IMG/VR virus record: IMGVR_UViG_3300047378_000147
Coordinates: 1-42,133 of that record
Direction: 5' to 3' (one strand)
Origin: a virus
DNA: 42,133 nucleotides
Under the pieces are notes generated by a model. The model was not told the DNA's origin. It searched no databases and saw nothing but the letters and a program-made list of their open reading frames with translations. The translations under genes and the position numbers were made by a program. Below, piece by piece: positions 13,059 to 36,442 of this stretch (position 1 is its first letter; the number at the start of each line of letters is the position of its first letter).

Positions 13059-16000
13059 TTAATCCATTAATTCAAGAAGTTTTTCAACTCTATCATTTTC
13101 ATACTTTAAAGCTTTTATCTCGTCTTTACTTAAACCTAAACTGTCTAGTTTTCTAACCTGATCAGCTTTACTTAATTTCTTGTATTTATAAGCATCAACT
13201 TCTTTTTTATTAACTATATCTTTTTTACCACTGTTTTTAGCTATAATAAGTTTTATCTTAGCATCTTCAGACTTAGCTTTCTTTATAGTATATTCTCCAA
13301 AACCTAATCCTTTTAACATTTTTATTTGCTGATCTGATGTAAGCTTTTTAATAGTATCATAATCTTTAGAGCCTTTAGCTTTCTTGTAGTTTTCTATTTT
13401 AGTATTAGCTTTTTTCTCAGTCTTTTCTTCAGGAGTAAGCGTAGCTGGTGTTTTAGGATCTTCTAATTGCCACTTAGGCCAACCACCCATCATAGCTATT
13501 CTCTGCCAAATTTCATTATCTTCATCTAAAGCTCCTTCAATATTTTTTATCTTATACATGACTCTATCAAGAGGAACATTAGTTGTAGCAGAGACTACTT
13601 TAGCAGCTGCTTCATATGCTGGATTGTCTAATGAAAAACCTTTTTCATATATTAATTCTCTACGTTTTTTAGAATCAAACTGCCAACCAGCTTGTTTTAA
13701 TTTAGATAACTTAGAGTATATAGGCGGTGAGAACCTAGTAACTTCCCATACAGAATCTACATACTCCGGCCTGTCTCTTCCTGATCTTTCGTAAATATCC
13801 ATTAAAAAGTTTTTAGCTACAGAAACAGCTGCTCCTCCAATACCTAAACCTCTTAGTAGAGAGTCTAGCATACCGTTAGCTACATTTAAATACTTCTTAT
13901 TTTTAGCTTCTTCTTTTTCATCATCATCATCATCACCAAAACCTAAAGCAAATACAGCTTGTTGTAAAGCATTGAATATCACATTTTGAACAAATCCATA
14001 ATAAACTATTCTACTAACATGAGATTTAGCATCTCCTCTACCGTTAATTAAGTCCTGTATAGCTCTTTTTTGTATTCTAGCATATTGCATAGGAGTGTTT
14101 GCAAAAGCTAGTATTAATCTACCAATATTGCTAGCTTGTTGTTGAGATATTCTACTAGGATCAGAAGACTGCTGTGACTCTTCTGCCACTTGCCTAAACT
14201 CTATAAGAGCTTGTTTCTTAGCGTCAGCCTCTGTCATACCTTTGCTGACTAAATCTTTTATTCTGTTACGATAAAACGTAGCGCCACCAGAAGCAATGGC
14301 AAAACTATCAGCATATTGAGTAGGTAAAAAACCTTTTTGCAATAAGTAATTAATAGCAGCTTTAGCTTTGTTCTTACTAGTCGCAGCAGCGTCAGCTATT
14401 TCACTTTCAGATATATTAAGCTTTAGACCATTACGTCTGTCTAACAAGTAATCAGAGTTCATTAGCTCTTTGAAATCAGACCAATATTGTTTTTGATTAG
14501 CAAAAGCTTTACCAGCTTGATAAGGATTATTAAAACTCCAGTTAACAAAGTTTATAGAAGATATTGTTTGTAAAACAGCTGATCTAGTATTAAAGAACAT
14601 TATAGTACCTATAGATCCGTTTACATAGTCTAGTATTCTATTTTCTATTTTACTACCACTAGTTAATCTGTTCTTGCCAGTTTTCATTCTAGTTAACATG
14701 TTTGTTAACGCATCTACATATTTAGTACCATAGATGGCTTCTAGCTTGTTTAAATTTTCTTTAGAATATATAGCATCTATACTCTCTTGCCAATCAGTCA
14801 GGTACTTAGATCTTTTTTCTGTATTAATTAAGTTTATTAAGTCAGTTGTTATAGTACCAACCAACCAACTAGCGTCAGGCATAGCATACCCATCACCTTT
14901 GGTTATACTTAATATCTGTTCAGCAAACTCTCTAAGTTTAGGATTGTTTTGCACTGTGTCACTAAGTTGTTTTAAATCTCTCTTAGATAACCCAGGTATT
15001 TCTACATCTGCTTTATTCCAAAGGTAAACTCTTACAGCTTGCTCATTAGTAAATCCATTAGAGTTTTTCTTTTTAAGATCTTTAGGAACATCTAATGATT
15101 TTTTCAACTGTTTAAAATCGTTCATTAAGTTTAATCTAGCTGTAGATAGATTTTCTTGAGCTTTAGTGTACTTATCTATTAAATTAGTTTTATACCAAGC
15201 CATTTGAGCATCTCCCTTGCTACCTTTGGCTAAAGTAGGATATACTAAACCTAAAAAGTCTTCAGCAGAATAAGGTATAAAGAATTTAAAATTACCTTTG
15301 CTTGCTCCTATAGTTTTAGCTTTAGCAGCTGAATATTCTTTAAAAGCATCTACGCCTGTAGTTTCATCTATTAAATCATTAAATTCATCACTAAGCTTTT
15401 TACTTTCCTTAATTCTAGCTTGTTGAACCTTAGACTTGACATCTATAACTGACATTACATCTCTAACAGCTTTTACGTTTTGGTATGCATCATCAGCAAA
15501 GTAAAAATCATTATAACCTTCAGCCGCTTTATTAACCATCCATTTTGCTTTAGCAGCACCAGTTGAATCACCTAGACCAGTTATATTGTCTAATGGTATA
15601 TTTAAACCTTGGCTATCTAAAAACTCTTTTATAGCTACTTGAGCAGCAGGATTTCTAGCAGTTAATACAAACACGTCTTCAGTTCCTCTTGCTGCTTGTA
15701 TTTTCTTAGCTATATCTAGCAATGGACCTGGTTTTCCTTTAGTTACTTTATTAAACTCTGAAAAATCAAACACATAACCTTCTTCTAGTAATTGAGCACC
15801 TTGTTTTGCAAACTGTTCAGCATTTAGTCTACCTTCTTTACCATCAGGAGCTGTAAATAAAACATCTGATTTAGTTATTGCTAGTGTATCGTCAAAGTCA
15901 AACACTCTAATTTTCTTAACAGGTTGATCTAATGAGTTAGCTAGCCTTAAAGCTTCATCAACTGTTGCGGCATAGTTAACTATATCGTCATTAGTTTCAG

Positions 16001-19000
16001 TTTTACTAAACTTAACAACTTCGTTAGATAATTCTTTTATGTTTGATTCTTTAGCAGGAACTTTAGCCTCTAGCATTTTAACAGCTTCTGTCTTCATTAA
16101 AGAAGAAACACTTGAAGCACTATCTAGTGTATAATCACTTTTAGGAATATTTCTTAAATTACTTGGTAATATTCTTAAGTTAACAGTAGTAGTAGGTACT
16201 CCATCTTTTCCAACGTTATTACTAGGAAAAATTCTCATCGTTAGATCAACATTGCCTGTCAATTCTGGTAAAGGTAATCCTAAAGGGTTTTTACCCATAA
16301 AAAATAATCCACTGTCTTTTAATTGTATATAATTAGTTGGTGGTGTTTTATTTTCGTAAATCTCTTTTATTGGTGTTATATCAAACTCAGCTTTTTGAGT
16401 CACCGCTTTTTGAAGCCCTTCTCCTTTTATACCATTTGGAAATTTTTCTTTTAAATACTTATATTTAGGTTTTAATTTAGCAATGCCTTTGGCATCTAAT
16501 CCTTGACCTAACTGTAAAAATATCTCCATAGGAAGTTTTCCTGTTCTTCTGTACAAATTCATATCAGCACCTAGCTCACCTGCTCTTTTTTCATAAGCTT
16601 TTAAAGCTTTTTCTGATGGTGCAAATAATTCTTTTCTTATTCTTTCTTTAAAGCTATAGTCTTTGCTTTTAACCTTATCGTTAAAATCTATTAAACCATT
16701 TCTAAATGTTAAACCAACATCTCCATATTGAGCTTTTGCAAGCTTAACTTCTACATCAAAATCATTACCAAATATCTTAGCAGCAAAATCTGGTATTCCA
16801 ATTTTATTACCGCCAGCTTGTTCTGAAACTACAAACCCTTTTATTTTTAAATCTTTTAATCTTTTTATAATTACATTTTCATAAGCAAATCCTTTGTTTG
16901 AGCCTATTTTTTTTAATTCAAAGTTTATGGCTTGATCAATTGTTATTCCAGGATTATTGTCTAATATTTGGTCAACTCTTCTTACAAACGTTTTTTCTTG
17001 ATTTTTATCTAAATCTAAGTCTAATCCATCTAGTTTTTTAGCAAATAATATATCAGGTCTTGTTTGAGTTTTTCTAGCTGATGTAGCTTTCACTTGATCA
17101 GTGTCACCCTGTTTAACTCTGCTTTCAGGTAAAAAGTCTTTAAACATTTTTTTACCAAACGCTTCAGCTAATTTACCTTTTCTATTACTAACGGTAGATG
17201 GTTTTTCTTTTGTAAAGAAATCTACAGCAGCATCTGCACCAGGATTTAATATATCATAAAGCATAACACCTTGAGCTTCGTTTTCTACAAAAGCTCTGCC
17301 TGAGTCTCTATACTTTCTTATATCAGCTTGAGTTGTTAAACGTCTATTAGGCTTAGTGAACATTCTAGGTTTACCTTGTTTCATTAAACCTTTATCTAGC
17401 TCAATAAGATATTTTAAATCTAAATCTCTTATATTGTTATAATTTTCTTTTACAAAAGTTTTATAATCTTGGCCTTTTAATACATTGTCCTTAACCCAGT
17501 TCTTAAGTTCAGCTCCTGCTAATTGATCTACTTTTGTTCTATATTTAGGATCACTAACAGGTGGTAATTTACTTACTATAGGTTCTGATATTTCTTTAAA
17601 TGATTTAACTTCTTCTTGAGTTAAACCTTCTTCATTACCTCTCTTTATATTTCTTCTAAATGTAGACTTAGGTTGTTCTTTAACTTCTCTATCTACCTCA
17701 GCTATAATATCTGTTGACGTATCTTCAATGTCAAAAGCTTGGCCTTCACTAGTTGGTTTGTCTATACTACGAGCATCAGAATCTACTCTAGTAGCATAAT
17801 CTTTTTTAACATCTAATAAAGCTTTCTGAGCAATACCACCTAAACCTCTTTGATCTGCTTTACCATACAAATAGCTAAATAAACTTCTTTTATTTCCATC
17901 TACTATAGGTTTAAAATTATTTAAAGCCCTAAGCTGTAGGTTTTCTTTTATTTTTCTATTAACCTCTTGTTTGACATTAGAGTCTAATCCTTGTAAGTTG
18001 TTATCTCTATTTATTAGTTGATTTATATAATTATCAAATTGAGAGTTATTTTCTATATTTTCAAAAGCATCTATAGCAGCTTCACTATTTTTAAAGTCTT
18101 CGTTTGTTTTAAGTTCTTCAGTAATGTTTTGATCAAAAGAGTTAGACATGGATTTAGTATCAACACTTATAGGCTTAGCTGCTGCCATTTTAGTGTCTCT
18201 AGATTTTATATCTTCAGTAGTAGTTTCAGATTGCTTATTTATAGGTATTACTTTTGCATCGTTTTCAGATGCTATTAAGTCTCCAGACTTTTTAATTATA
18301 TCAGAAAACTTAACTTTACCTTTAGCTAGCTTTCTTTGTGATCTAGTTAACTTACCTCTTCCAGTATTTCTAATATAATCATCAAGAACTTCCATAACAT
18401 TGTTCTCATTGATTTCTATTTCCATACCTAAACCTTGAAATAATCTTCTTACTCCAGCTTTAACTTCACCACCAATAGTTGTGCCTTTTTTAAACGCACC
18501 TTTTTTCTTAAGCTGAGTATAATAAGTCAACACTTCCTCAGCTACATCAGCATCTGTGTAGTTTTCATCTGACCTATACTTGTCTAATTGTCTTTCTATT
18601 TTTCTTGCTGTCTCAGGATCTATCTCAGCCATTTGCTTTTTCAAAGCTTCCGCTATACCGAATACTACATTTTTATTTTTAGGATCGCTTAAAGCTATAT
18701 CTAAAAAGTTATGTAAAGACTCATGTTCTAAAACACCTTTAGTAGCCGTTTTAGACATTAGTATTACGCCTTTGTCTTTTAAATAAACACCTTCTGGATC
18801 TAATAAATCTTCTTTATTTAAGTTGTATTTTTCTGCTATTTCATCAACATTTTCATCATTAAAAACCTCTACTTTAGCTTCATTAAGTAGGTTATCAGCA
18901 TCCTCTTTAGATATATCTTGATCTTTAGCTAGGTTTTTTATTTTTTGTAATGATACTATCTTTAACTGTTTTTCTGTAAAATCTAATTGCTCTTCCGCTG

Positions 19001-22000
19001 TTAGTTCTTTAGATATTTCATTGTTTGAATCTGTAGTTATTTCTTGAATTTGCTTGTTATTAGCTTCTATTTGATTTTTTATTCTAGCGTTAGTGTTTGG
19101 CCCTAATTTTTCTGCTTCTACTTCTAGCTTTTCATTAGCCTCTAATAATTGAGCAACTTCCATTTGAGCTTTACCATTTATGTTTGGGTCTATTTTATTA
19201 AACCTACTAAATGCTTTATTCATTTCAAAAGCATCTTCATCAAACTGTTCTTGAGTATATATCTCGCCATTAACCTCTTGTCCTATTTGCTCTTTTATTT
19301 GTGTTAAAGCTACTGATAGATCTTCTGGAGATCTTAAAGTATTAGCAAGTTCTTCCATGTTTTTTTCAAACTGCTTTCTTTCAGCAAAAGAATTATTAGC
19401 TTCGTAATCGCTTAATACTTTTTCACTATTTATCATAGCTTGAAAACTACCACCTGCATTACCTGATAAAAAAGAAACACCAGCCATATGTTTCATTTCT
19501 TTTTTAAACTCATCTGAAGTATAAGCAGGTAATTCAAAATTCAATTGGTTTCCTGTTCCTTTATTAAACATCTCAGTAATAAAATAATCTGCACCTGTTT
19601 GAACAGTCTCATCTAAAAGTTCATCTATACCAGATCCAGTTACTTTACCAAACTTAGATAAAGCTTTAGCGCTTAAATCTCCTATTTTCTTGTTAACAGC
19701 TATTTGAATATCTTTTGCAGTAACATTACCTGTCAAGTTCTTCATTACAGAGTTAGTTACTCTACCTACTACTTTTTCAGTTATTTTAATATTACCTTTC
19801 ATTATACCTGCAGTAACATAAGACAAAGCACCTTGCACAGTTGCTTTTGCTAAAGCATATCCTTGCCTAGAAGCTGGCGACCATATTTCATCAAATCTTT
19901 TCTTAGCTTCTGACCTGCTTAGTTCAGGGTGATCAGCTATAAATTCATTTTCTACTCTAACAGCATCAGCTTGTTCAGCGGCTAGAGTTCCAAAGAAATA
20001 ACCGCCAGCTAAACCTGTTAATGGAGCACCTATGACAGCACCGTACATTTGAGCAAAAGAATTTATAGTTCCACCAACAAGGCTTTGAGCAAATTCTTGA
20101 CTGAACTTTTCATCATTACCACTTAGTTGTAGTTGATCTTTTATCGCTTTAATATTATTATCTATACTTGCATTTTCAAAAGCAAATCTCTGTTTGTAAG
20201 ACTTATACTGCCTGTCGTTTATGCCAAAAGCTTTTTTAATGAAATCAGGAGATCCACTTGAGTATATCTCATGCCCAAGGTAGTTTATACCTCTAGCAAA
20301 TAATTGAAAAGCTTGAACTCTACCTACACTTGTCTCCGCAACTTGGCCTGCTACAGTATTATACAACTCTCTTATATAACTTCCTTGTGCTTCATATTTT
20401 TCAGACATTTTTTCTAAGCGACCACTAAGCATTAAATTTGAAGCTGTATATTCTCCTTCTAAAGCTGTTAAAAAATCATTATCAGTAAGTAAACCATCAA
20501 ACTCATCTTTTAACTTAGTAAAACCACCAACTCCAGCATTGTACTCCTCTGTTAAAGATTCTATATTTGGTATTTTATCATCATAAAATTCTTTGTATTT
20601 AGAGGATATACTTTTTTCTTTTTCTAAGTTTTCATTATAAGTCTTTATAGAGTCTCTTTGATCTGACATGAAACCTTTTTCCCACTTTCTATACTCTTTA
20701 GTTAATTGCTTTGCTATATCTGGGTTATTAGCTATATCTTTCTTTAATTGATCTACCTTTTTACTCTGAACATTAGAACCATTGTCTATTTCTTCTTTAA
20801 GAATTTTGTTATCTTTTTCTATTAATCTTATTTCTTCATTTGATCTTACAAATTCTTTTCTTAATGAAGTTTTTTGTTTTGTAATATCTTCTGAAATCTT
20901 AGAAGTATCTAGTATTATTTTTGTCCTTTGTTGGATATTAGACTTTTGCTCGTTTATGTTTTCTTTTATAAGATTAAGTGTTTTCTTTTTTTCTTTTCTT
21001 TCTTTACTGCTATCAGCTTTAGCTCCAGGTGCGGTGCTGTTTGATTTTTTGTATTCACTTATGTTTTTATCTATAAAGTTTGTAATACCTTCAACATCTT
21101 CTACATCATTTCCACCTACTCCAAAATTAGCCTTATAAGAAAGACCTTCTCTTTCCATTAATTTATTAAAGTCATCTGTTTCATAAATTACTTCTCCAAA
21201 AGAATTTCTTTTTGGCATCTGATCGGCAGATATACCATTAGCTTCTAACGTTTTTCTATAATCTATACTACCGTCATCTTTAAATACAGGGTTTTTGTAA
21301 ACATAAACATCACCATCATCTCTAATAGCACCAATGCCATTATTTATATACTTTTCGTTAATATTATTTCTTACAGTTTCAGAGTCTAAATTTTCAAACT
21401 CTCTTATATTCTTTTCTAGTTTCTTTTTTCTACCAAATATTCCTGTCTGACCATAATCTTTCTCTGTCTTGATCTCATAGCCGTTATCTGTATTGTTAAA
21501 ATAACCACCTTTACCAGTCCAGTCTGTAGGTTTTGGTTTCTCTTGTTCTACTTCTATAGAACTTAACATGTTGTTGTTACGGTATGCTTGAACTAATTTT
21601 GTTTTTTTAGAATTTTTAAATTCTTTAAGCTCTTCTACCCTTTCTGGAGTTGTCTCAGGGTCGTTTAATTCTTGATCAATTACATTTATCTCATTTATAA
21701 TTTCTGAAGGATTAGCAGGTATAAGTGAGCTTTCCGCGGTAACAACTAATTCTGGTAAAGCTTCATCTTTAGGATCTCTTATAGTAACTTGATCTGTAGT
21801 TACAACATCATCTTTTTTACCAAATAATTCTTCTTCTTGCTCAAAAGTTAGATATATTGGAGTTCCTTGAATTTCTTCAGATGTATCAAATCTAGGAAAT
21901 TTAATTTTATTACCTAAAAAGTTTTCAACTTTTGATCTTTTATCATTGTACTTAGTGTCTTTATCTTGCTTGTAGTAAGCTAAATAATAATTTCCTTTAA

Positions 22001-22574
22001 CAGTTTCAACTGTAGATTCTTTATCTTCACCTGGCCTGTTTATTCTTTTTTTAGTTTCTGGCTCTGTATAACTATAGTTTATTTTCTTTAATGAAACTAA
22101 ATTATTCGAGTCAGTATTCGTATCTTCTTCTAACCTAGTTAAAGGCTCAGATTGATTTTTTAATTTATCTGCATCTTCAGCTATGTTAGATAAATCTACA
22201 TTTTTTGTATTAAATGAGTCTTGTATTTTAGTTTTTTCTTCATCACTTAAACTAGATAAATCAATAGTTTCTAAAACATCGTATTTTCCTTCTGGTATAT
22301 TTTCAGAGTTTTTTGGTACTTTGACTTTTCCCTTAGACTTTTTCTCTACTTTAAGATCTTTTTTACCTAAATTTTTAGGGTCGTTTTCATCCTTTTGAGA
22401 TTCCAAAGAAGTATTTTCCGAGCTGGATTCCGTACCGCTTTGGTCTTGCGCCGTTACAGATGCAGTATTCTCCGCAACGACTTCCTGCTTTTCCACAACC
22501 TCAAAACCTGGAATAATTTCTTTTTCTTCTTGTTCTTCAACAATTTCAAAACCTGGTATAATTTCTTCAGCCAT
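13059..22574 (-). CDS. Giant internal virion (cargo) protein, 3171 aa, with zincin, nuclease and HAD motifs
   Basis: About 23 percent of the window. It lies after two smaller internal-protein genes in the position of T7 gp16, so it is likely packaged and possibly ejected into the host. Order: an acidic N-terminus with a tandem IIPGFE(I/V)VE repeat; a long coiled-coil region (about 540-720); a hydrophobic Gly/Ala segment (about 835-880); a zincin-like HESLH (His1284, Glu1285, His1288); a PD-(D/E)XK-like motif with Asp1929, Glu1942 and Lys1944; an HAD-phosphatase-like domain with DFDDTL (Asp2226, Asp2228), VLTAR and FADD. A C-terminal region follows with an AFANTPMQYAR segment and a membrane-like helix before a DDDDD run. 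I recall a similar C-terminal region in marine phage structural proteins. Each enzymatic call rests on short motifs. Confidence 0.85.
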   Translation of the reverse strand: MAEEIIPGFEIVEEQEEKEIIPGFEVVEKQEVVAENTASVTAQDQSGTESSSENTSLESQKDENDPKNLGKKDLKVEKKSKGKVKVPKNSENIPEGKYDVLETIDLSSLSDEEKTKIQDSFNTKNVDLSNIAEDADKLKNQSEPLTRLEEDTNTDSNNLVSLKKINYSYTEPETKKRINRPGEDKESTVETVKGNYYLAYYKQDKDTKYNDKRSKVENFLGNKIKFPRFDTSEEIQGTPIYLTFEQEEELFGKKDDVVTTDQVTIRDPKDEALPELVVTAESSLIPANPSEIINEINVIDQELNDPETTPERVEELKEFKNSKKTKLVQAYRNNNMLSSIEVEQEKPKPTDWTGKGGYFNNTDNGYEIKTEKDYGQTGIFGRKKKLEKNIREFENLDSETVRNNINEKYINNGIGAIRDDGDVYVYKNPVFKDDGSIDYRKTLEANGISADQMPKRNSFGEVIYETDDFNKLMEREGLSYKANFGVGGNDVEDVEGITNFIDKNISEYKKSNSTAPGAKADSSKERKEKKKTLNLIKENINEQKSNIQQRTKIILDTSKISEDITKQKTSLRKEFVRSNEEIRLIEKDNKILKEEIDNGSNVQSKKVDQLKKDIANNPDIAKQLTKEYRKWEKGFMSDQRDSIKTYNENLEKEKSISSKYKEFYDDKIPNIESLTEEYNAGVGGFTKLKDEFDGLLTDNDFLTALEGEYTASNLMLSGRLEKMSEKYEAQGSYIRELYNTVAGQVAETSVGRVQAFQLFARGINYLGHEIYSSGSPDFIKKAFGINDRQYKSYKQRFAFENASIDNNIKAIKDQLQLSGNDEKFSQEFAQSLVGGTINSFAQMYGAVIGAPLTGLAGGYFFGTLAAEQADAVRVENEFIADHPELSRSEAKKRFDEIWSPASRQGYALAKATVQGALSYVTAGIMKGNIKITEKVVGRVTNSVMKNLTGNVTAKDIQIAVNKKIGDLSAKALSKFGKVTGSGIDELLDETVQTGADYFITEMFNKGTGNQLNFELPAYTSDEFKKEMKHMAGVSFLSGNAGGSFQAMINSEKVLSDYEANNSFAERKQFEKNMEELANTLRSPEDLSVALTQIKEQIGQEVNGEIYTQEQFDEDAFEMNKAFSRFNKIDPNINGKAQMEVAQLLEANEKLEVEAEKLGPNTNARIKNQIEANNKQIQEITTDSNNEISKELTAEEQLDFTEKQLKIVSLQKIKNLAKDQDISKEDADNLLNEAKVEVFNDENVDEIAEKYNLNKEDLLDPEGVYLKDKGVILMSKTATKGVLEHESLHNFLDIALSDPKNKNVVFGIAEALKKQMAEIDPETARKIERQLDKYRSDENYTDADVAEEVLTYYTQLKKKGAFKKGTTIGGEVKAGVRRLFQGLGMEIEINENNVMEVLDDYIRNTGRGKLTRSQRKLAKGKVKFSDIIKKSGDLIASENDAKVIPINKQSETTTEDIKSRDTKMAAAKPISVDTKSMSNSFDQNITEELKTNEDFKNSEAAIDAFENIENNSQFDNYINQLINRDNNLQGLDSNVKQEVNRKIKENLQLRALNNFKPIVDGNKRSLFSYLYGKADQRGLGGIAQKALLDVKKDYATRVDSDARSIDKPTSEGQAFDIEDTSTDIIAEVDREVKEQPKSTFRRNIKRGNEEGLTQEEVKSFKEISEPIVSKLPPVSDPKYRTKVDQLAGAELKNWVKDNVLKGQDYKTFVKENYNNIRDLDLKYLIELDKGLMKQGKPRMFTKPNRRLTTQADIRKYRDSGRAFVENEAQGVMLYDILNPGADAAVDFFTKEKPSTVSNRKGKLAEAFGKKMFKDFLPESRVKQGDTDQVKATSARKTQTRPDILFAKKLDGLDLDLDKNQEKTFVRRVDQILDNNPGITIDQAINFELKKIGSNKGFAYENVIIKRLKDLKIKGFVVSEQAGGNKIGIPDFAAKIFGNDFDVEVKLAKAQYGDVGLTFRNGLIDFNDKVKSKDYSFKERIRKELFAPSEKALKAYEKRAGELGADMNLYRRTGKLPMEIFLQLGQGLDAKGIAKLKPKYKYLKEKFPNGIKGEGLQKAVTQKAEFDITPIKEIYENKTPPTNYIQLKDSGLFFMGKNPLGLPLPELTGNVDLTMRIFPSNNVGKDGVPTTTVNLRILPSNLRNIPKSDYTLDSASSVSSLMKTEAVKMLEAKVPAKESNIKELSNEVVKFSKTETNDDIVNYAATVDEALRLANSLDQPVKKIRVFDFDDTLAITKSDVLFTAPDGKEGRLNAEQFAKQGAQLLEEGYVFDFSEFNKVTKGKPGPLLDIAKKIQAARGTEDVFVLTARNPAAQVAIKEFLDSQGLNIPLDNITGLGDSTGAAKAKWMVNKAAEGYNDFYFADDAYQNVKAVRDVMSVIDVKSKVQQARIKESKKLSDEFNDLIDETTGVDAFKEYSAAKAKTIGASKGNFKFFIPYSAEDFLGLVYPTLAKGSKGDAQMAWYKTNLIDKYTKAQENLSTARLNLMNDFKQLKKSLDVPKDLKKKNSNGFTNEQAVRVYLWNKADVEIPGLSKRDLKQLSDTVQNNPKLREFAEQILSITKGDGYAMPDASWLVGTITTDLINLINTEKRSKYLTDWQESIDAIYSKENLNKLEAIYGTKYVDALTNMLTRMKTGKNRLTSGSKIENRILDYVNGSIGTIMFFNTRSAVLQTISSINFVNWSFNNPYQAGKAFANQKQYWSDFKELMNSDYLLDRRNGLKLNISESEIADAAATSKNKAKAAINYLLQKGFLPTQYADSFAIASGGATFYRNRIKDLVSKGMTEADAKKQALIEFRQVAEESQQSSDPSRISQQQASNIGRLILAFANTPMQYARIQKRAIQDLINGRGDAKSHVSRIVYYGFVQNVIFNALQQAVFALGFGDDDDDEKEEAKNKKYLNVANGMLDSLLRGLGIGGAAVSVAKNFLMDIYERSGRDRPEYVDSVWEVTRFSPPIYSKLSKLKQAGWQFDSKKRRELIYEKGFSLDNPAYEAAAKVVSATTNVPLDRVMYKIKNIEGALDEDNEIWQRIAMMGGWPKWQLEDPKTPATLTPEEKTEKKANTKIENYKKAKGSKDYDTIKKLTSDQQIKMLKGLGFGEYTIKKAKSEDAKIKLIIAKNSGKKDIVNKKEVDAYKYKKLSKADQVRKLDSLGLSKDEIKALKYENDRVEKLLELMD

Positions 22575-22577
22575 ACT

Positions 22578-23993
22578 TTATGTTTTTCTTATCTTTGTTA
22601 ACTTACCATTGATAGTTACTTCTACTTCGTCTCCACTTTTTGCTAATCTCATTTTCTCTTGATCATCTTCTGATAAACCGTATTTAACTTTTAAATCTTC
22701 AGGTAATTTTTCTTCTTCAACTTTTAAGTCTTTAACAGTGTCCGCGATTTGTTTATTGACATCTTCTGTAGGATCATCTAGTGTTATTTGCATTGAAGCA
22801 GCTCCAGCTCTCACTGATTGTTCAGCTAGAAAATCTAAAGAAGGCTTGTAGTATTCTTTATAAAAAGCTTCATAAAGATCTTTGTCTTTTTTAGTTGCAC
22901 TAGCCCTTGTTCCATTGTTTATTATTTCATCAGAACTTAATTCTGTTTCAATAAACCCATCACCATATGGTATTGCTACTTGTAGATCACCCGTAGGCCA
23001 TTGTGATTTAACTTGATAATTAGGATCTTCAAACATTTGATCTTCCCAAATACTTTCTGCAATATTAGCGTCTCCTTGCAACAAACCCTTAAAACTACCA
23101 CCTTCGGCTTTTTCATTAGGTTTTGACGGGTCATTTCCTATTAAGCTGTTTTTATAATCTACTTGTTGTTTTGGTGTCATACTATAAGTATCGTCTGGAC
23201 CTGTAGTTACAAACGTTGGATTATAAACACCCTCATCATTTTCGTTTTTAACAATATCGCCAAAGAAACCTGTACTTAATTCTTCTGTTGGTTTTGCATA
23301 CACTAAATAATCTTCGCCTCTGTCTTGAGCTTTATTGAATTCAGTTATATTAAGAGATGTATCACTTTTAGTGTCATAAAGTATTATATTATTACCTTCT
23401 CTTTTAAACTCTATATCTTCAGACTCACTTCCACCACCTGTTATTTTTCTTATTATTTGTAGTTGGTCAGCAGGTGCACCAGCATTACTTAATTTACCAC
23501 CACTATTAATATCTGCTGTAGAAGCTTCTTTAATTGCTTGGTTAAAAGCCAACATGTTAGAAACACCTTTTCCATACTCATCAATCATGTTTTCTATATT
23601 TGCCAAGTCCTGCATGCCTAAAGAAGGATCTTTCATATTTTTTATATTGTTTTTAATATTATAATAGTCATCTATTACACCATTCATAAAAACATCTGCT
23701 TTTTTATCAGTTCCTTCAAATCCAGTATCATAATCTGTACTACCTACTTTCTTATATAATTTAGTAGTTGCATTGGCATAGTCTTTGTTTAGTTTAGCCA
23801 AACCATCTGCCTTAGGTGCTATTGCTTGATTGGCCAAAGTACTTGCTACATTAGTTAAAGCAGATAAGTTTTGACTAGTTCTGGCTTGCCTAGTAGTTTC
23901 TCTTTGAGAACTTCTTTGTAGCGACTGATTTAATAGAGTTTGATTCAACTCTAAAGCACCGTCTTTCATTTGTTTTGGTTGTCTATAACTCAT
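22578..23993 (-). CDS. Internal virion protein B candidate (471 aa)
   Basis: Directly upstream of the giant internal protein (3-base gap) and downstream of the 188-aa protein, a position like T7 gp15. The sequence is polar, with an N-terminal Gln/Ser/Thr-rich helical region (LNQTLLNQSLQRSSQRETTRQ), a mixed middle with beta segments and an acidic-helical C-terminus. It has no catalytic motif, signal peptide or membrane segment. A core or ejection role is inferred from order only. Confidence 0.68.
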   Translation of the reverse strand: MSYRQPKQMKDGALELNQTLLNQSLQRSSQRETTRQARTSQNLSALTNVASTLANQAIAPKADGLAKLNKDYANATTKLYKKVGSTDYDTGFEGTDKKADVFMNGVIDDYYNIKNNIKNMKDPSLGMQDLANIENMIDEYGKGVSNMLAFNQAIKEASTADINSGGKLSNAGAPADQLQIIRKITGGGSESEDIEFKREGNNIILYDTKSDTSLNITEFNKAQDRGEDYLVYAKPTEELSTGFFGDIVKNENDEGVYNPTFVTTGPDDTYSMTPKQQVDYKNSLIGNDPSKPNEKAEGGSFKGLLQGDANIAESIWEDQMFEDPNYQVKSQWPTGDLQVAIPYGDGFIETELSSDEIINNGTRASATKKDKDLYEAFYKEYYKPSLDFLAEQSVRAGAASMQITLDDPTEDVNKQIADTVKDLKVEEEKLPEDLKVKYGLSEDDQEKMRLAKSGDEVEVTINGKLTKIRKT

Positions 23994-24004: not shown

Positions 24005-24571
24005 TTAAGCCATTGTTTCGTTAATGTAACTAGTATTTATAGCATTTAAGTTTTCTAAAACTCTTTGTTCGGTATTATCTAATTTGGTAGCTGATCTATC
24101 TATGTCTGCGTTTTGTCTATTTTCAGTAGTATCAAACTTGAATTTTTCACCTTCTGCTAATTGGGTCTGCAGTTGCTGTGCGCCTTGCGCAGCTAGCTTC
24201 TGATTATTTGCTTCTTGTTGTTCTAATGAAGCTGCTATACCTTTTTTACTTTGTAGTGCCGCTTGTGCTAATGCTGTAGCACCACCGGCGCCACCACCTG
24301 TAGCTGCAATAGTATCTAATGTGTTTGCCAAAGCCATGTCTGTTTGTTCAGCTTGAAACTCAGCCGCTTTAGTAGACACGCTTAAATTAGCCATTTGATT
24401 AGTCATTCCTGCATATGGGTTTATAGCAGGCTGTCTATTCTTTAGTAAGTTATCTAAATGAGCTTGTTTAGCTGCTATTAATTTTTTACCTTTATCTCTA
24501 GCTGCGTTAATTTTATTTCGTCTATCTTGTTCTGCGTTTTCTAAAGCAGTATTATTCTTTGAACAACCCAT
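24005..24571 (-). CDS. Internal virion protein A candidate (188 aa)
   Basis: Begins MGCSKNN, an N-terminal pattern I associate with gp14-like internal proteins of podoviruses, and is very rich in Ala, Gln and Asn with long helices (ALAQAALQSKKGIAASLEQQ). A Gly-rich turn (ATGGGAGGAT) sits in the middle. It is the first of three consecutive internal-protein candidates, matching the T7 gp14-gp15-gp16 order. By analogy it would help form the ejection channel. Similarity to T7 itself is not directly visible. Confidence 0.68.
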   Translation of the reverse strand: MGCSKNNTALENAEQDRRNKINAARDKGKKLIAAKQAHLDNLLKNRQPAINPYAGMTNQMANLSVSTKAAEFQAEQTDMALANTLDTIAATGGGAGGATALAQAALQSKKGIAASLEQQEANNQKLAAQGAQQLQTQLAEGEKFKFDTTENRQNADIDRSATKLDNTEQRVLENLNAINTSYINETMA

Positions 24572-24999: not shown

Positions 25000-26700
25000 T
25001 TAATATGATGATACAACGTATTTAGTTCCAGCTGACCAAAGTTCTTTAGCTCCTCCTAACTGAGTTGTTTCATCTGTTTCTATAGTTACGGTTGCAAAAT
25101 AACCTTTAATACCAGACATTTGATTTCCAAAAATAACTTCACCAGCCCTAGCGGTGGAATTAGATATTAAGTTTGCTACATATCTATTTTCTTTTCTATT
25201 GAAACCAGCTCTCAAAGGTTGTCCTGTAACGCTGTCATTGTACAAACCTTCATCATAACTTCTTATAGCAATGCCTAATTTTTCATAGTTTTGGTCTTGA
25301 TCTTGAACGTAGGTTGAAGTACCGTTTGGATTTGGATCATAACCTGTAAAGCCTGATTTAAATGAGGTTACTTCCCAACCATTACTACCTTCATAAGAAG
25401 TAGTTTGAAAATTTTTAACTATTGAGGATTGATCGTTAAATATAAATGTAACATTGGAAGGTTTTCTCACTCCATAAAACAAGCCTCTATTGTTTGCTAC
25501 ATCGCCTGCGTAATGTTCGTATATGTCATGTTCATCTACAGTATAAAACTTGTTTAACACACTAAACATTTGGTTTGGTTTAAAAGTAAAGAAACTAACC
25601 CAACCATTTATTTTCTCATCAAAAGCTACTGTCTTAAAACTTGATTCACTTGAGCTAACTTGATTAGGAGATTTTTGAAGTGATATTAAATAATTTCTAT
25701 TGTGTATATCCCAACCACCAATTACTTTTCCTTTTGTTTTATATTGAAAAGACAAAACTCCGCCTGCTACTACACCTCCTACAAAAGCTTGAGAATACAA
25801 AACTTGACTTACTGTATTAGCAGATAAAATTCTAATATTAGTTACATAACCTCCATTTTGACTTGCTATTGTCATACCTGGTGTTATTTTTCTAGTTTCC
25901 ACCGAATCAGGTATGTTTACATAAAAATCACCATTACCCCCACCGGCAAATACACTTCCACCAGCTATATCAATACTTGTAGTTTGCTTATCATCAAGAA
26001 CTGTAGCTAACTCATCTCTAAAATAATCTTGCATTCCATACATGCTTATTTCAGTTAATCCATCATTAGATAGTCTCATTATAGAGTTTCTACTTTTATC
26101 TGAAAAATACTTCCTATAGTTATATATTGCAAATGATTCTGGGTTTTTACTTATTCCATACTCTCCTTTGTAAGGAACAAACTGACCTATAACCGCGGCA
26201 CCTGCCTGAGTTTGTGTACCACTTTCGGTTGTGTATATAGTATCTTTATCTATTAAAGCCCTATGTATTTTGTTTTCTTGCCAAACTATTAAGTTAGTAT
26301 CTTCAGCATAAAGCTTTTGTATAGAACCAAAAACAGGATCTATAGATTTAGTTATGGCATCACCTACAGAGAATACGTTAGTTCTGTTTATACCAGTTCT
26401 AGAATTATAAACACCAGAATATATAAGTGTGTTTATTCTTTTTTGTTGAAGTGGAAAAGGCTCGTCTAAGTATGCTCTAGCGCCTTGATCAGTAGATGTA
26501 TTATTAAAACCACCTCTTATTCTAGCTTCTTCAATGTAGTAGTTTCTATTAGAAGTACCAGTACTTATATCTTGATAAGGAGTAACGCCAGGAGACATAA
26601 ATACAGTTGCTGTAGCTCCAGCGGTTTGTGCTTGACTTTGGCATCTAACTTTTCTTATTATATAGCTGTTAAAGAAATCTACTTGTATTATTGCTGACAT
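25000..26700 (-). CDS. Tail protein, second part of the stabilisation/muzzle system (566 aa)
   Basis: Beta-rich, Gly/Ser/Thr/Asn-rich protein with no membrane segment. Segments such as YKGEYGISKNPESFAIYNYRKYFSDKSRNSIMRLSNDGLTEISMYGM match, from memory, a region found in tail proteins of marine podoviruses, sometimes as the C-terminal part of a larger tail protein. It follows the 1221-aa stabilisation protein by 14 bases in a different frame, so the two are separate genes. It probably forms the distal short tail, near the host-binding tip. Confidence 0.75.
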   Translation of the reverse strand: MSAIIQVDFFNSYIIRKVRCQSQAQTAGATATVFMSPGVTPYQDISTGTSNRNYYIEEARIRGGFNNTSTDQGARAYLDEPFPLQQKRINTLIYSGVYNSRTGINRTNVFSVGDAITKSIDPVFGSIQKLYAEDTNLIVWQENKIHRALIDKDTIYTTESGTQTQAGAAVIGQFVPYKGEYGISKNPESFAIYNYRKYFSDKSRNSIMRLSNDGLTEISMYGMQDYFRDELATVLDDKQTTSIDIAGGSVFAGGGNGDFYVNIPDSVETRKITPGMTIASQNGGYVTNIRILSANTVSQVLYSQAFVGGVVAGGVLSFQYKTKGKVIGGWDIHNRNYLISLQKSPNQVSSSESSFKTVAFDEKINGWVSFFTFKPNQMFSVLNKFYTVDEHDIYEHYAGDVANNRGLFYGVRKPSNVTFIFNDQSSIVKNFQTTSYEGSNGWEVTSFKSGFTGYDPNPNGTSTYVQDQDQNYEKLGIAIRSYDEGLYNDSVTGQPLRAGFNRKENRYVANLISNSTARAGEVIFGNQMSGIKGYFATVTIETDETTQLGGAKELWSAGTKYVVSSY

Positions 26701-26714
26701 ATTTGTGAATTAAT

Positions 26715-29700
26715 TTATTGTTCAACAGGGACTGAATCATCTAACGGTGTTCCTGGTGTTATAGGTGCATCTGGTAGAACCACAGAAGATGTAGGACCTG
26801 CTGCTACTAAATTGTTTAAATCTGAAACTAAACCACACGTAGATGTCTCCCAAAATATTTCTATTTTAGACTGTAAAGCACCTACTTCAAATATATAAAG
26901 ACCAGTTGGTCTCCAATAGGCTCTACCTATTACATCTGCATTAGGCATTGTTAGTATTATAGCTGTAGGATCGCTTGAAGCGCTTTGGACACCACTAGAC
27001 TGTACAGGGGTTTTAAAGCCGTTAGGCACTGGAGGAGTAGCACTGTCGAAGGTAACTTCTGCCACACCTATATCTCTTATTTTACCATATGCGTTTATAG
27101 AAGCAGATTGAGCTCCAAGCAAAAAGTTTTGAGTATATATATAATCTATGGTTGCGTTGTCTCTTAGTATTGTTCCGCCAACTCTAGGATATAGCAAAGC
27201 ATCACTAGTTCCAAATTGATTTTGTTCAGGAGCTACTTGTATTAAGTCTGCTGGAATTTTATTAACATTGTCAGCTAACAAACTAGATACAAAACTACTA
27301 CCTGAAAAAGCATAATTACCTAAACTACTAGCTAAAGCTGAGTTAGGAGATAAATAAGCAACATTACCTAAATACGCGTTGTAATAATCTGGTGTTAATT
27401 GTTTTACTACTATTTTGTAACTATACCATCCTAATTTATTTTCTGGACCATATATTTCAACATCAGTATCAATGGCTGCGCTGATAGGACTAGACAAAGT
27501 AATTTTTTTTGTAGTAAAGTTTAATGCTACAATAGCTAATACATTAGATTCTATAACTACAATATCACCAACTGCAGCATTAGAATCTAATTCATTACAA
27601 ACAATTATATTTGAACTACTCACAGCTGCTCCTAGTGTAGTGTCGTATCTACCGCTTTTGTATATACCAGGATATCCATCAGCTGTTGATGTTGCTGGTA
27701 TAGCTTCTCTTAGCAATATCTCCAACATATCACCTCTCCACGTTGCTATGTTTCTAGTAAAATAACTATTAAAATAAGGATTAAAAATTGTTGATGATTC
27801 ATACAAATTATTTATGTTGCTCACGACTGTTTTGTATTGTTTATTGTCTAAAGGTGATAAGATAACGTCTGATTGCCTACCATATCTATCAGCTAGAACA
27901 AAACCAACTTGGTAATTTCTATTCTGCTTAAGAGTATGTGTAGGGTAAGATAAATATGAGTTACTAATTTCTTTGCCTGCTTGTAGAGTCTGAACGGTAG
28001 AATTAGTTATATTAGAAATAGTTGGAGTTTCTTTTTCTGTTATTCTAACATTATATTTTATAGAGCTTGGAGGTGTGTGCTTATCTATAAAATTTCCATA
28101 AATTATTCTATTACCAGCAGATTCTTGAGCTAGAGCTCTAATAGGTACTTTGTCGTAAACTCTTTCTATTTCTTTAGTTGGAGATATTAATTTAAATGGT
28201 TCTTTTGATTGGTAGTTATATGTGAAAATATTAGAAGTATTTACAGTTCCGTCTTCATTTAATCTAAATATTTCACTAGGTATTGTATCAACGATTTTAA
28301 CAGCTAAACCGTCTGATTCTTTATATAGTATATCTATTTCTACAACACCAAGCTTTGATTTTATATCTAAAGTATTAGGATTACTTGAGTCACCAAGCGG
28401 GTAAGGCATTTCAATCTGCAAACTAATAGTATCTATGCTGTTTTCAAAAAAGCTTACTATAGTACTAGCTTGAATATCTTCTTCACCTGTTGCAAAATTC
28501 TGAATTGCAGTGCCTATTACGTTTCCACTAGAAGTGACTGCTCCTAAACCTGGATCTGTTAAGGCTATTTCAGAAACGCTTTCTTGTATAAAACCTCTTT
28601 GCTTAGGCACAAAGACTGGTTGAGTAAAAGGTGATATTAATGAATATTCTCCATCATCGAATTTAAATCTATAAGCAAATCTAACAAATTTATCTTTTAA
28701 TAATTCAGAGTCTCCAGCAAATGCTGAATTATAGTTAGGATTTGGCCAACTAAACTCAACCATAGCAACGGCATTTAAAGTACTTGAAGTAGGTATGTTG
28801 TGATCTATATTAGTTGTTATTTTATAATAATTTACTCCATCTGGAGCAGCGCCTTGGTATGCTGACGCGGTAATAACAGTGTCAGGACTTGTGAATCCAG
28901 GGCAATTAACAAGCATTTTAGTGTAAGGAATAGAACTACCAGACCAAAAGAAAGTTTTAGCAGTTGGAGCATCTACATTTATAAAATTACCAGCAGATAG
29001 AGTCCAAACTAAAGTTCCTGAACCATAGTTGTAAGTAAATCCCGCAGCTGAACCAGACCCAAATGGAGCTGGAAGTGTCACATTGCTACCATTTATATAA
29101 CCTGCACCAGTACTTTGAAGAGTAGCATTTCCACTTGAACTAGAAACTAAAGCTGTTCCATCTGCTCCACTACCAAGCACGGATAATACGCTGCCTACTG
29201 TGTAGTTGCTCCCAAGAGCAGTTTGAGTAATAGAGGCATATTTGATTATAGCCGTATTAATTGTTATTGTATCATTTACTGAGTAACCACTACCCGCGCT
29301 AGTTACTATAACTCTCGATATACTTCCACTTGCTATCTCAACATCAATAGTAGCATTAGTTCCACTCCCATTAGTGGTAAAAGGAACATTTACTAAAGTA
29401 CGACTTGGACCACCCACAGAGGTGTTATTAACCATGTTTGATTCGCTAGACACCAAATAATCAACTTGTCTTAAGCCTAAAGTTACATCAGCGTCGTACC
29501 TTACAGCAGCTCCTATTATAGAATAATCTAAATACTTTTTAAATGAATTTTTAGAATTAGAAAAACCAAAAGCTACTACAGTGTTTGCGGTAGTTACAAT
29601 TTGTTCATTAGTTAAAAAATAACTAGTATTATTATTGCCCTCAGAAACAGCTACTATAAATCTTTCCAACGTTGAGCCTGGGTTAGATGGAACGCTATTA

Positions 29701-30380
29701 CCACCCTTCAAAAGCATCATGCCTGCTTTTAGTTTTTTAGCATCTGCTAAAGTAACAAAATTTTTATAATCATAAGTTGGTAGGCCTGCTGATGAATAGT
29801 TTTTTACGTTAACACTAACCTCATCATATAGTTTAGGTACTTTATATGGGTAATATTTAGCTACAGATATTGTGTCTTCTGTAGAATAATAAGTAAGACT
29901 AGAAACTTTTTTTACGTTTATTTTTCTAGGTTGGTTTCTGTCATCAGTCCAAAACAATAAATCCTCTAATAAATTAACACCATATATAGGGTGTGTTTTA
30001 GATAAATTTAAAAATCTGCCTTGAACTAAGATAGAATCTGTACCTGTGGATAAATCTGTTTTAACTATTCTACATTCAGCGCCATAGGGTGCCGGATTAC
30101 TCAATTCATCACTTGAAGTATCAGTATAATTAGTTGAAAAAGTGTAAACACAGTTGTTTATATCATCTTTTATATACCCTATGATTTCACTAGTTTGAGT
30201 AAGGGTTACTGATGATAATAATTTATTTCCTAAAACATTCTCTAAAGCACCAACATCTTCACCTTCAGATCTACTTATATTTACGTTTTGAGCATTTCTA
30301 TATTCTCCATTAGATAAAAGTCTATCGTCAAGATCTTTGTTCATCTTTGACTTGATAAAAGTATTTTTTATTTCTGGCAT
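26715..30380 (-). CDS. Tail stabilisation/muzzle-type protein (1221 aa)
   Basis: The N-terminus has MNKDLDDRLLSNGEYRNAQNVNIS, and further on come LLFWTDDRNQPRKINVKK, NRIIYGNFIDKHTPP, YQVGFVLADRYGRQSDVILS and GWYSYKIVVKQ. I recognise this series from the tail stabilisation family of marine podoviruses and crAss-like phages (P22 gp10-like role). It would form the lower neck or nozzle. A Gly/Ser-rich insert at about residues 350-460 repeats a GSGYSV.., GSNYTV.., GAGYIN.. motif and looks like a beta-repeat insertion. The C-terminal tail is Pro/Asp-rich (PITPGTPLDDSVPVEQ). It precedes the 566-aa tail gene. Confidence 0.82.
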   Translation of the reverse strand: MPEIKNTFIKSKMNKDLDDRLLSNGEYRNAQNVNISRSEGEDVGALENVLGNKLLSSVTLTQTSEIIGYIKDDINNCVYTFSTNYTDTSSDELSNPAPYGAECRIVKTDLSTGTDSILVQGRFLNLSKTHPIYGVNLLEDLLFWTDDRNQPRKINVKKVSSLTYYSTEDTISVAKYYPYKVPKLYDEVSVNVKNYSSAGLPTYDYKNFVTLADAKKLKAGMMLLKGGNSVPSNPGSTLERFIVAVSEGNNNTSYFLTNEQIVTTANTVVAFGFSNSKNSFKKYLDYSIIGAAVRYDADVTLGLRQVDYLVSSESNMVNNTSVGGPSRTLVNVPFTTNGSGTNATIDVEIASGSISRVIVTSAGSGYSVNDTITINTAIIKYASITQTALGSNYTVGSVLSVLGSGADGTALVSSSSGNATLQSTGAGYINGSNVTLPAPFGSGSAAGFTYNYGSGTLVWTLSAGNFINVDAPTAKTFFWSGSSIPYTKMLVNCPGFTSPDTVITASAYQGAAPDGVNYYKITTNIDHNIPTSSTLNAVAMVEFSWPNPNYNSAFAGDSELLKDKFVRFAYRFKFDDGEYSLISPFTQPVFVPKQRGFIQESVSEIALTDPGLGAVTSSGNVIGTAIQNFATGEEDIQASTIVSFFENSIDTISLQIEMPYPLGDSSNPNTLDIKSKLGVVEIDILYKESDGLAVKIVDTIPSEIFRLNEDGTVNTSNIFTYNYQSKEPFKLISPTKEIERVYDKVPIRALAQESAGNRIIYGNFIDKHTPPSSIKYNVRITEKETPTISNITNSTVQTLQAGKEISNSYLSYPTHTLKQNRNYQVGFVLADRYGRQSDVILSPLDNKQYKTVVSNINNLYESSTIFNPYFNSYFTRNIATWRGDMLEILLREAIPATSTADGYPGIYKSGRYDTTLGAAVSSSNIIVCNELDSNAAVGDIVVIESNVLAIVALNFTTKKITLSSPISAAIDTDVEIYGPENKLGWYSYKIVVKQLTPDYYNAYLGNVAYLSPNSALASSLGNYAFSGSSFVSSLLADNVNKIPADLIQVAPEQNQFGTSDALLYPRVGGTILRDNATIDYIYTQNFLLGAQSASINAYGKIRDIGVAEVTFDSATPPVPNGFKTPVQSSGVQSASSDPTAIILTMPNADVIGRAYWRPTGLYIFEVGALQSKIEIFWETSTCGLVSDLNNLVAAGPTSSVVLPDAPITPGTPLDDSVPVEQ

Positions 30381-30382
30381 AA

Positions 30383-31537
30383 TTAGTGTTTAATCCATTT
30401 AGATTTACCACGCATTACTTGAACTATTTCATCAAGTTTTATATTTGATAATCTTATCTTAGCATTTCTTAATTTTGCTGATCTTTCTCTTTGGTATCTT
30501 TGAACTATGTATTCTGGGATATTTGTTTTTGTTGATAGTATAGAATGATTAATATGAGCATATAATGCATCCTCGGCCATCTTAGGCACCTTAGAATCTA
30601 TGTCATAGGCTAATCCATCTGAGATATATTCTAAAACTATTAGTTTATTGGCTAAATCACTAGAAAAAGTAAATTTACCTTCTCTCTCATTTATTTGAAA
30701 CCAACCATTCATTTGTGATACCTGCGGATCTAAACCATATCTTTGTCCATAAGTTAATTTCCACCAATCTCTACTATATACATTGACGTCATCTTTGTCA
30801 ATCTCTCCAGTTATATCTTTGCCACTAGCTGTGTTCCATTTTTCTTCTGTTAAAGATTGATCTGCTTGAATATTTTTACTAAAAGAATCTTGTATTGGGA
30901 TTCCTGATTCATCTTGTAGAGGTAAAGTAAAAGGTGAGGATGTTAGATTATTAACTGGATATATTATATGTTGAACACCACTACTGTCTATCCATGAGCA
31001 TCTAACGTAGTTTACATAGTCTTGTGGTATTGCAACACCTAAACCAGGTGGTATTGTTAATTCTTGAGATTTAATACTTTTTAAAGTATCATAACTAAAC
31101 TCTTGTAAACCTCTTTTAGCGTGGAATATAACATCAGTTCTACTAATTCTATTTATTAATTTATCTTCACCAACGTAAGCTACTATAAAGTTGTTTATAA
31201 CATCGTTTAGACTAGTATATTCGTAACTGCCATAATTTTCTTCTATTGCAGGTTTTTTTAACTGTATATAAATAGATCCAGTATATGGACCATTTCTAAG
31301 TGTTATTATATTACTAGATGGGTTAGATACATAAGATAAATTTTCCGCTTGAGCAACATTATTTATATATATAGTGTAATTAGAAGCAGATGAAACCATG
31401 CCGCCAGAGCTATCAAAAGCACTAACAACATCAACATTAAAAGTACAATTAAAAGTTGGGTTTGATACACCTGCTAAATTAGAAAATGTTTGTTGACCTG
31501 AATAGTATTGAGCGTTAGTTTCAGTTATTAGTCCCAT
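30383..31537 (-). CDS. Connector/ring protein B2, with fibre-like N-terminal extension (384 aa)
   Basis: The middle and C-terminal parts are a paralogue of the 195-aa protein encoded at 32345-32932: INNFIVAYVGEDKLINRISRTDVIFHAKRGLQEFSYDTLKS here versus INNFLISYTGPGRLIPDAIRTEVIFHARRCLQEFAYETIKS there. The N-terminal ~105 residues are extra: a beta-rich segment (FNCTFNVDVVSAFDSSG... NIITLRNGPYTGSIYIQLKKP) resembling the virion-anchoring N-terminal domain of T7 gp17-type tail fibres. It may dock tail appendages onto the neck. It is the distal member of an A-B-A-B gene array before the tail stabilisation gene. Confidence 0.78.
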   Translation of the reverse strand: MGLITETNAQYYSGQQTFSNLAGVSNPTFNCTFNVDVVSAFDSSGGMVSSASNYTIYINNVAQAENLSYVSNPSSNIITLRNGPYTGSIYIQLKKPAIEENYGSYEYTSLNDVINNFIVAYVGEDKLINRISRTDVIFHAKRGLQEFSYDTLKSIKSQELTIPPGLGVAIPQDYVNYVRCSWIDSSGVQHIIYPVNNLTSSPFTLPLQDESGIPIQDSFSKNIQADQSLTEEKWNTASGKDITGEIDKDDVNVYSRDWWKLTYGQRYGLDPQVSQMNGWFQINEREGKFTFSSDLANKLIVLEYISDGLAYDIDSKVPKMAEDALYAHINHSILSTKTNIPEYIVQRYQRERSAKLRNAKIRLSNIKLDEIVQVMRGKSKWIKH

Positions 31538-31561
31538 ATTTATTTTCTTTTAATATTAAAT

Positions 31562-32335
31562 TTATTTATCTGCAAGTTCTTGAGCTGCTGCTTGAACTAT
31601 TTGAGGATCTCTTATTACTACTCCAGCATATTTAAGTATTTCTAGTATAACTTCAGTCTGGTAGTTACTACTTATTTCAAAGTCTACAGATCCAGTAGTA
31701 GGTATAACACCAGCGCCTGTGCTAGATGGTTGATATACGTAGTTACCTAGAGCTGCATTTACACTATAAGCCCAAACAACGTTTCTAGGTTTTCTTATAA
31801 AGCTTGCTTCTACGTTTGCTGTAATAGTGCTAGGTTTTATTGTTAATTCTTTATTCTCATATAGATATACAGGATAATTTGCGCTAGGTGCTGTTAAATC
31901 AGATCTATCTATGTTGTAAAAATAATCTCTTTGTAGTCTTTCTATTTCTACAGGTTTAGTAGATCCAGAAGTGACTGTTCCTAATCTATAAAAAGCAAAT
32001 TGATTAGATGTAGGAGCGTCATCATAAACTACAGCTGTGTTTGTTAATAAATCTACAGTTGGTGTAGTAAACCGCAAAGAACTTTGGTATGTACATTCAC
32101 CTAAGCATTTAAATGTAGATAACTCATCATCAATATTTTCTATAGGATTACTATAGTCAAATTCATTTTGAGGTATTCTTAATTGCTTGTCTAAATCTTT
32201 AAAGTAATTCTCAAATATATCTAACTGAACTTGAGTAGCTGCTTGATTAAACTCATATGGAGTTAAGTAACCACGCTGTTCTTTGTTAAGTATACTCAAC
32301 ACCGTCGTGTACACTGTGTTTACATTAATCGCCAT
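31562..32335 (-). CDS. Connector/ring protein A2 (257 aa)
   Basis: A paralogue of the protein encoded at 32938-33657. Both begin MAIN-N-VY--VL---ExRGxLTPxEFNxxATQxQxxIF, then YFxxLxxxLRxPQ, and share a PVYxYEN strand and a C-terminal GNYxY...ILxYAGVxxRD region. This copy has an extra Pro/Ser/Gly loop (VYQPSSTGAGVIPTTGSVDFE). Predicted to be a ring between portal and tail. It lies between the two B-type genes. Confidence 0.78.
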   Translation of the reverse strand: MAINVNTVYTTVLSILNKEQRGYLTPYEFNQAATQVQLDIFENYFKDLDKQLRIPQNEFDYSNPIENIDDELSTFKCLGECTYQSSLRFTTPTVDLLTNTAVVYDDAPTSNQFAFYRLGTVTSGSTKPVEIERLQRDYFYNIDRSDLTAPSANYPVYLYENKELTIKPSTITANVEASFIRKPRNVVWAYSVNAALGNYVYQPSSTGAGVIPTTGSVDFEISSNYQTEVILEILKYAGVVIRDPQIVQAAAQELADK

Positions 32336-32344
32336 ATTATTGTT

Positions 32345-32932: not shown

Positions 32933-32937
32933 AATTT

Positions 32938-33657: not shown

Positions 33658-33683
33658 TTTGTTTTTTTTTATTTTTGCGTATT

Positions 33684-33703
33684 AGGCCCGAGTGAACGGG
33701 CCT
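33684..33703 (-). other. Intercistronic GC hairpin
   Basis: AGGCCCG (33684-33690) and CGGGCCT (33697-33703) form a perfect 7-bp stem with a 6-base loop, between the 265-aa gene and the connector array. On the transcribed minus strand it is followed by A-rich sequence rather than a T-run, so a terminator is unlikely. It may be a transcript-processing or stabilising structure. Confidence 0.6.
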
Positions 33704-33721
33704 TTATACTATTGTTACATG

Positions 33722-34519: not shown

Positions 34520-34542
34520 AATATAATATAATATAATAATTT

Positions 34543-34572: not shown

Positions 34573-34581
34573 TTATTGTTT

Positions 34582-36431: not shown

Positions 36432-36442
36432 AATTTTAGTTT

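Follow-up and report, generated by a model that had tools for sequence, protein, structure and literature searches.

The stretch of DNA analyzed here (the window, 42,133 nucleotides of an uncultured IMG/VR virus record) encodes a 3171-amino-acid protein that probably belongs to the ejectosome of a marine, flavophage-like podovirus as its third and largest component, a polyvalent cargo that carries a zincin-type metallopeptidase domain, a HAD phosphatase-type domain and an exchange slot. The strongest sign of this putative ejection is amino-acid composition. A preliminary description of the sequence had proposed a continuous frame of this length, and this was borne out: the region holds a single open frame, on the minus strand, which that description left unstated, while the plus strand is rich in stop codons. 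The frame is also intact in four near relatives of 3165–3331 aa. The features of the protein and its surroundings are collected in Table 1.

Table 1. Features of the giant protein and of adjoining genes, in window coordinates.
Feature	Position	Strand	Remarks
Giant ejection-type protein, 3171 aa, no cysteine	13059..22574	-	intact frame also in relatives
N-terminal region, aa 1-800	20175..22574	-	acidic, fast evolving
Zincin-type metallopeptidase domain, aa 1189-1403	18366..19010	-	H1284, E1285, H1288, E1347; pLDDT 84
Linker region, aa 1450-1850	17025..18227	-	conserved in close relatives only
Exchange slot with PD-(D/E)XK-like module, aa 1892-2187	16014..16901	-	E1899, D1929, E1942, K1944; i-E 1.7e-12
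HAD phosphatase-type domain, aa 2217-2403	15366..15926	-	D2226, D2228, T2305, K2342, D2361, D2362
Conserved C-terminal core, aa 2423-3037	13464..15308	-	in 77/77 giants
Upstream partner (putative), 471 aa, 0 cysteines	22578..23993	-	position and composition
Upstream partner (putative), 188 aa, 1 cysteine	24005..24571	-	position and composition
Upstream head/tail module: muzzle-like pair, ring proteins, major capsid protein, portal, terminase	25000..42131	-	

Gene context, cysteine content and relatives

The giant gene ends the late operon, beside structural genes that match those of cultured flavophages. Terminase and portal match PHROGs, the portal is 42–52% identical to those of Flavobacterium, Maribacter and related cultured phages, and the tail protein matches Flavobacterium and Cellulophaga phages. 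The muzzle-like tail protein at 25000–30380 is divided between two ORFs (1221 and 566 aa), which align to consecutive sections of a single PHROG family 1474 positions long, and the 566-aa ORF contains a crassvirus muzzle C-terminal domain. A gene for a PAP2-superfamily phosphatase directly follows the giant (12541–13056), and a repeated element, TACAAACTAAATACGATA...CGGATAATA, lies just upstream of early genes at 768–808 and 7627–7667 and is a candidate phage promoter or operator.

Searching IMG/VR returned five loci with the full-length protein and 80 with its C-terminal part, from which 76 non-duplicate giant ORFs were taken to give, with that of the window, 77 giants. All three domains are supported by these uncultured-virus relatives, which were recovered at lengths of 1,000–3,500 aa. 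Nothing similar to the giant was found by translated BLAST among 50,697 phage records, nor was there a match by megablast and tblastn among cultured phages. A scan of genome contigs added 20 loci, many in bins of Flavobacteriaceae, Cryomorphaceae, Saprospiraceae and other Bacteroidota, which fits Bacteroidota hosts, though binning could account for these loci.

No cysteine occurs in the window giant or in 65 of its 76 relatives. Ten others have six cysteines each in a Cys/His-rich C-terminal tail (with two extra in L075), and the giant of L003 has two cysteines. Cysteine makes up 0.03% of residues in the giant and likewise in each of the genes immediately upstream of it, two in number, but 0.45% in the genes beyond those. 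Cysteine is likewise absent from N4 gp50, gp51, and gp52 and from T7 gp15 and gp16, and the giants at the syntenic position in cultured phages contain 0, 0, 0, and 1 cysteines. For the N4-type RNA polymerase, published work connects the lack of cysteine with passage through the tail during injection (PMC3915230). Together, cysteine absence and gene order strongly suggest that the giant is ejected, and the T7 gp16-like position attributed to it earlier is upheld as that of a third ejection protein. By the same reasoning, the 471-aa partner is a putative periplasmic-tunnel protein in the position of T7 gp15 and N4 gp51, and the 188-aa partner a putative outer-membrane pore protein in that of T7 gp14 and N4 gp52; across relatives, the two upstream proteins mostly measure about 350–700 and 190–340 aa, respectively. 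Direct BLASTP of both small proteins against their cultured counterparts gave nothing significant. An iterated profile tied the 188-aa protein to phages phi38:1, elemo, and Panino, a result to be read in light of strong compositional bias and the presence of those sequences in the search set. The main text of a proteomics paper on phi38:1 virions and virocells makes no mention of gp101, the syntenic giant of that phage. A cysteine-free block of three adjacent genes could serve as a simple and testable marker by which to recognize ejection proteins from their composition.

The window protein shows a stepped pattern of conservation along its length, and the order zincin, HAD, core is constant. 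Between the window and its relative L002, dN/dS was 0.18 for the zincin, 0.35 for the slot, 0.045 for the HAD, and 0.08 for the core. The N-terminus varies, with differing short tags among relatives (a repeated EIIPGFE[IV]VE in the window), and at BLAST level residues 1851–2150 are common to the window and L002 only. The C-terminal core, the sole part found in all 77 giants, is under strong constraint; it had no match among Pfam models or PDB sequences, and 35 such cores matched none of the Pfam LPD models, LPD38 included, at E up to 0.1, which still leaves room for such a relationship. In ten giants (L073, L077, L072, L074, L075, L082, L084, L080, L086, and L085) the last 60–80 residues hold a double Cys/His-rich motif ending in SGKCYYHD, which is perhaps zinc-binding. 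The giant of L037 is spread over two successive ORFs (1978 and 968 aa) that part ahead of the HAD; this may be a natural split or an assembly error. The membrane-like helices previously noted in the protein are weak, consisting of three 19-residue peaks with a mean hydropathy of 1.2–1.3.

Catalytic domains and the exchange slot

The three enzyme-like motifs lie where they were initially reported: HESLH at 1284–1288, D1929/E1942/K1944, and a DFDDTL (2226)...VLTAR...FADD set. Shuffling the residues of the giant protein itself gave expected counts of 0.0015 for HExxH, 0.01 for HAD motif I, and 0.35 for PD..ExK; chance is thus an unlikely source of the first two, while the last is not significant alone and needs conservation. 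The whole giant had no match in Pfam, and its sole match among PHROGs was to polynucleotide kinase (PHROG 415, aa 2217–2403, 6.9e-6).

Assignment of the zincin is supported by both sequence and fold. Among 68 segments, selected for HExxH but not for E1347 and mostly less than 25% identical to the window, H1284, E1285, H1288, and E1347 are the only invariant columns. The domain profile matches 75 of the 77 giants, the remaining two ORFs being truncated or split. An AF2 model (pLDDT 84.3, pTM 0.79) has the zincin arrangement of an N-terminal helix, a three-stranded sheet, and two C-terminal helices, in which the HExxH helix (model residues 78–91) is followed by a conserved helix bearing the downstream glutamate (138–154). 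The fold search proposed in the preliminary description came out in favor of a zincin by one route: Foldseek alone found no significant match for the model, but the best VIA alignment among the Foldseek candidates was to residues 2154–2362 of N4 vRNAP gp50 (Z 6.4, 173/193 residues), ahead of lethal factor and PPEP-1. The three chains span Z 5–6.4, and the value for gp50 is middling. The HExxH subdomain of N4 has been described (PMC12633501), as have the zincins of polyvalent proteins (PMC5512222), and L041 carries an HExxxH variant of a kind found in that literature (PMC12633501; PMC5512222). Five giants (L042, L048, L049, L068, and L069) retain the profile match but have lost the first histidine, reading EELFH or QEVGH, which suggests that these copies are catalytically dead. 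Catalysis by the zincin is thus probably usual rather than universal, and a structural role is possible.

A full-length HAD domain is present in 53 of the 77 giants and missing from 24. All 51 aligned segments have DFDDT, and each of LTAR, K2342, and DD2361–2362 is kept in at least 90% of them, so that the superfamily motifs (DxDxT, a T/S in motif II, K in motif III, and DD in motif IV) are all represented and the HAD assignment is upheld at the sequence level. DUF2608, an uncharacterized family, is matched by 41 of the 51 members, and a few match Pfam HAD or HAD_2; against the PDB the only matches were to mammalian PNKP and were not significant (E = 1.5). The HAD of the L019 giant is interrupted between motifs I and II by a zeta-toxin/PNK-type P-loop kinase (aa about 2275–2500), which makes a phosphatase–kinase pair inside one giant. 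Phage RNA repair is known to employ HAD phosphatases of the PNK type (PMC7824862). With moderate confidence, the domain can be regarded as a relative of the polynucleotide 3′-phosphatase that forms half of polynucleotide kinase, a likeness that favors the repair of nucleic-acid ends over an unspecific phosphatase attack.

The slot that precedes the HAD holds a PD-(D/E)XK-like module in six of the 77 giants and an alternative, the EH module (EHxxPA ... NYxQxxLxK; for example, L066:9218–9829), in 66, with both in none; the PD-(D/E)XK-like module is thus a swappable cassette, and it occurs by itself in cyanophages. Its carriers are the window and L002, with a related version in L056, L061, L064, and L070. 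A profile built from the window and L002 alone did not link the two groups, nor did an initial profile of the other four that stopped before much of the module's conserved C-terminal half; once the module was extended into that half, the four-sequence profile matched the window slot (Table 1) and also standalone proteins of 225–287 aa from cyanophages P-SSM2 (PSSM2_192), P-TIM40, and S-8S53. The residues that never vary among the resulting nine homologues include E1899, D1929, E1942, and K1944 as well as a Y..K......IQ....G block farther downstream, which substantiates the PD-(D/E)XK-like claim at the level of a sequence family. In its residues, the module follows the PD-(D/E)XK pattern of a Glu on the first helix, an Asp, then ExK on adjacent strands; the AF2 model of the segment, made from six sequences, reached a pLDDT of only 42.8. 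A regular-expression count of the PD motif was barely above that in shuffles (6 vs 3.6) and was therefore not relied on. In the EH module the Glu-His is invariant and an Arg nearly so; searches of the PDB, Pfam, and PHROGs returned nothing convincing, and an HNH-like identity was considered.

A role at infection and its alternatives

In the favored scenario, the giant would be stored in the head with its two upstream partners, pass partly unfolded through the tail and a channel built by those neighbors, and refold in the host before or with DNA entry. The C-terminal core may serve packaging or ejection. After refolding, the giant could be cut or could work as a tethered enzyme set: the zincin, of lethal-factor type, would most likely cut its own polypeptide, either in the head or once inside the cell, with host proteins as possible further targets; the HAD would most likely heal nucleic-acid ends made by host defenses; and the slot would here contribute a PD-(D/E)XK-like nuclease. 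Neither enzyme is universally required, since the HAD is absent from 24 of the 77 giants and HExxH is lost in five. More tentatively, and with the odds against so specific a reading, a lineage of marine Bacteroidota phages may inject such a cysteine-free multi-enzyme chain before their DNA, with an end-healing phosphatase (joined by an inserted kinase in one relative), a swappable cassette that acts on nucleic acids, and a self-cutting zincin, as a pre-loaded counter-defense against nuclease-based immunity that can be rewired through exchange at the single slot. To call the protein an unusual takeover device, as had been proposed, is an overstatement, injected multi-enzyme phage proteins with zincins having been described since 2017 (PMC5512222); a takeover function is possible but not needed, and counter-defense or end repair at entry fits equally.

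It is unlikely, though worth weighing, that the giant is mainly structural, a T7 gp16-like ejectosome protein forming the inner-membrane end of the DNA channel, with enzyme folds that are inherited and have little or no catalysis. Such a role would suit the strong constraint on the core, alone present in every giant, the replacement of HExxH in five relatives, and the loss of the HAD from 24. It sits poorly with catalytic residues that are the sole invariant columns of an otherwise very divergent zincin, with HAD motifs intact in 51 segments at a dN/dS of 0.045, and with nuclease-like residues that never vary among nine proteins, including three standalone ones from cyanophages. Considerably less probable still is an unpackaged late protein acting inside the cell as a large assembly or processing factor, its zincin maturing other virion proteins. 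The position of the gene beside structural genes would agree with this and zincin-type processing of head proteins is plausible, but cysteine depletion is common only to the two neighboring genes and the known ejected proteins of N4 and T7, and the cultured counterpart is annotated as structural.

A further alternative concerns the HAD alone and has a substantial chance of being right, if somewhat short of even: the domain may be a phosphatase of nucleotides or other small molecules, or a degrader of nucleotide immune signals, instead of an end healer. That the best Pfam matches are to uncharacterized DUF2608 and general HAD families, and that the PNKP structure matches are not significant, would be in keeping with this; the PHROG polynucleotide kinase match, the kinase inserted into the HAD of L019, and the precedent of PNK-type HAD phosphatases in phage RNA repair (PMC7824862) argue for end healing.

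Comparison with known injected proteins

The polyvalent proteins of phages and conjugative elements are a class of injected multi-enzyme proteins, some with zincins, that was described in 2017 (Iyer et al., 2017; PMC5512222). Like them, the giant is large, multi-domain, and phage-encoded, combines a zincin with unrelated domains, and is predicted to be injected at infection; with zincin, HAD, and PD-(D/E)XK-like domains in one frame, it has the two or more biochemically unrelated domains in a single phage or plasmid protein that are expected of the class. It differs in that the main text of PMC5512222 names neither HAD/polynucleotide-phosphatase nor PD-(D/E)XK-like modules and in that its C-terminal core matches no Pfam polyvalent domain. 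N4 gp50 is comparable in being about 3500 aa, free of cysteine, ejected, equipped with an HExxH domain, and last of an ejection trio (PMC12633501), and that domain, the best structural match of the giant's zincin, is similarly placed. Unlike gp50, the giant has HAD and nuclease-like cassettes and no recognized RNA polymerase: none was matched in the 3171-aa protein by Pfam at E up to 1, a search that divergent polymerases could escape. T7 gp14, gp15, and gp16 are also encoded by three consecutive late genes, small, medium, and large, and share cysteine absence in gp15 and gp16; no sequence similarity was detected, however, and T7 gp16 is annotated with an endolysin domain.

Among cultured phages, the 3694-aa protein of Flavobacterium phage elemo and gp101 of Cellulophaga phage phi38:1 resemble the giant in lacking cysteine and in following homologous head/tail genes. 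The elemo protein, annotated as "structural protein" and with 0 Cys, contains the same zincin (i-E 2.5e-12), but neither the C-terminal core nor the HAD was detected in these two giants. The cyanophage (Kyanoviridae) proteins of P-SSM2, P-TIM40, and S-8S53 carry a homologue of the PD-(D/E)XK-like module in which every motif residue is present, yet are encoded by separate small genes outside any giant. The kind of protein described here is thus already known from polyvalent proteins and N4 gp50; what is new is the HAD and PD-(D/E)XK-like modules, the exchange slot, and the family itself. The strategy of injecting multi-domain proteins, for which N4-type, P1-type, and conjugative systems are the main examples so far, would thereby extend to a family common in marine virus contigs. 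It would gain two catalytic themes, a polynucleotide-type HAD and a PD-(D/E)XK-like module, together with a defined exchange slot from which further effectors can be sought.
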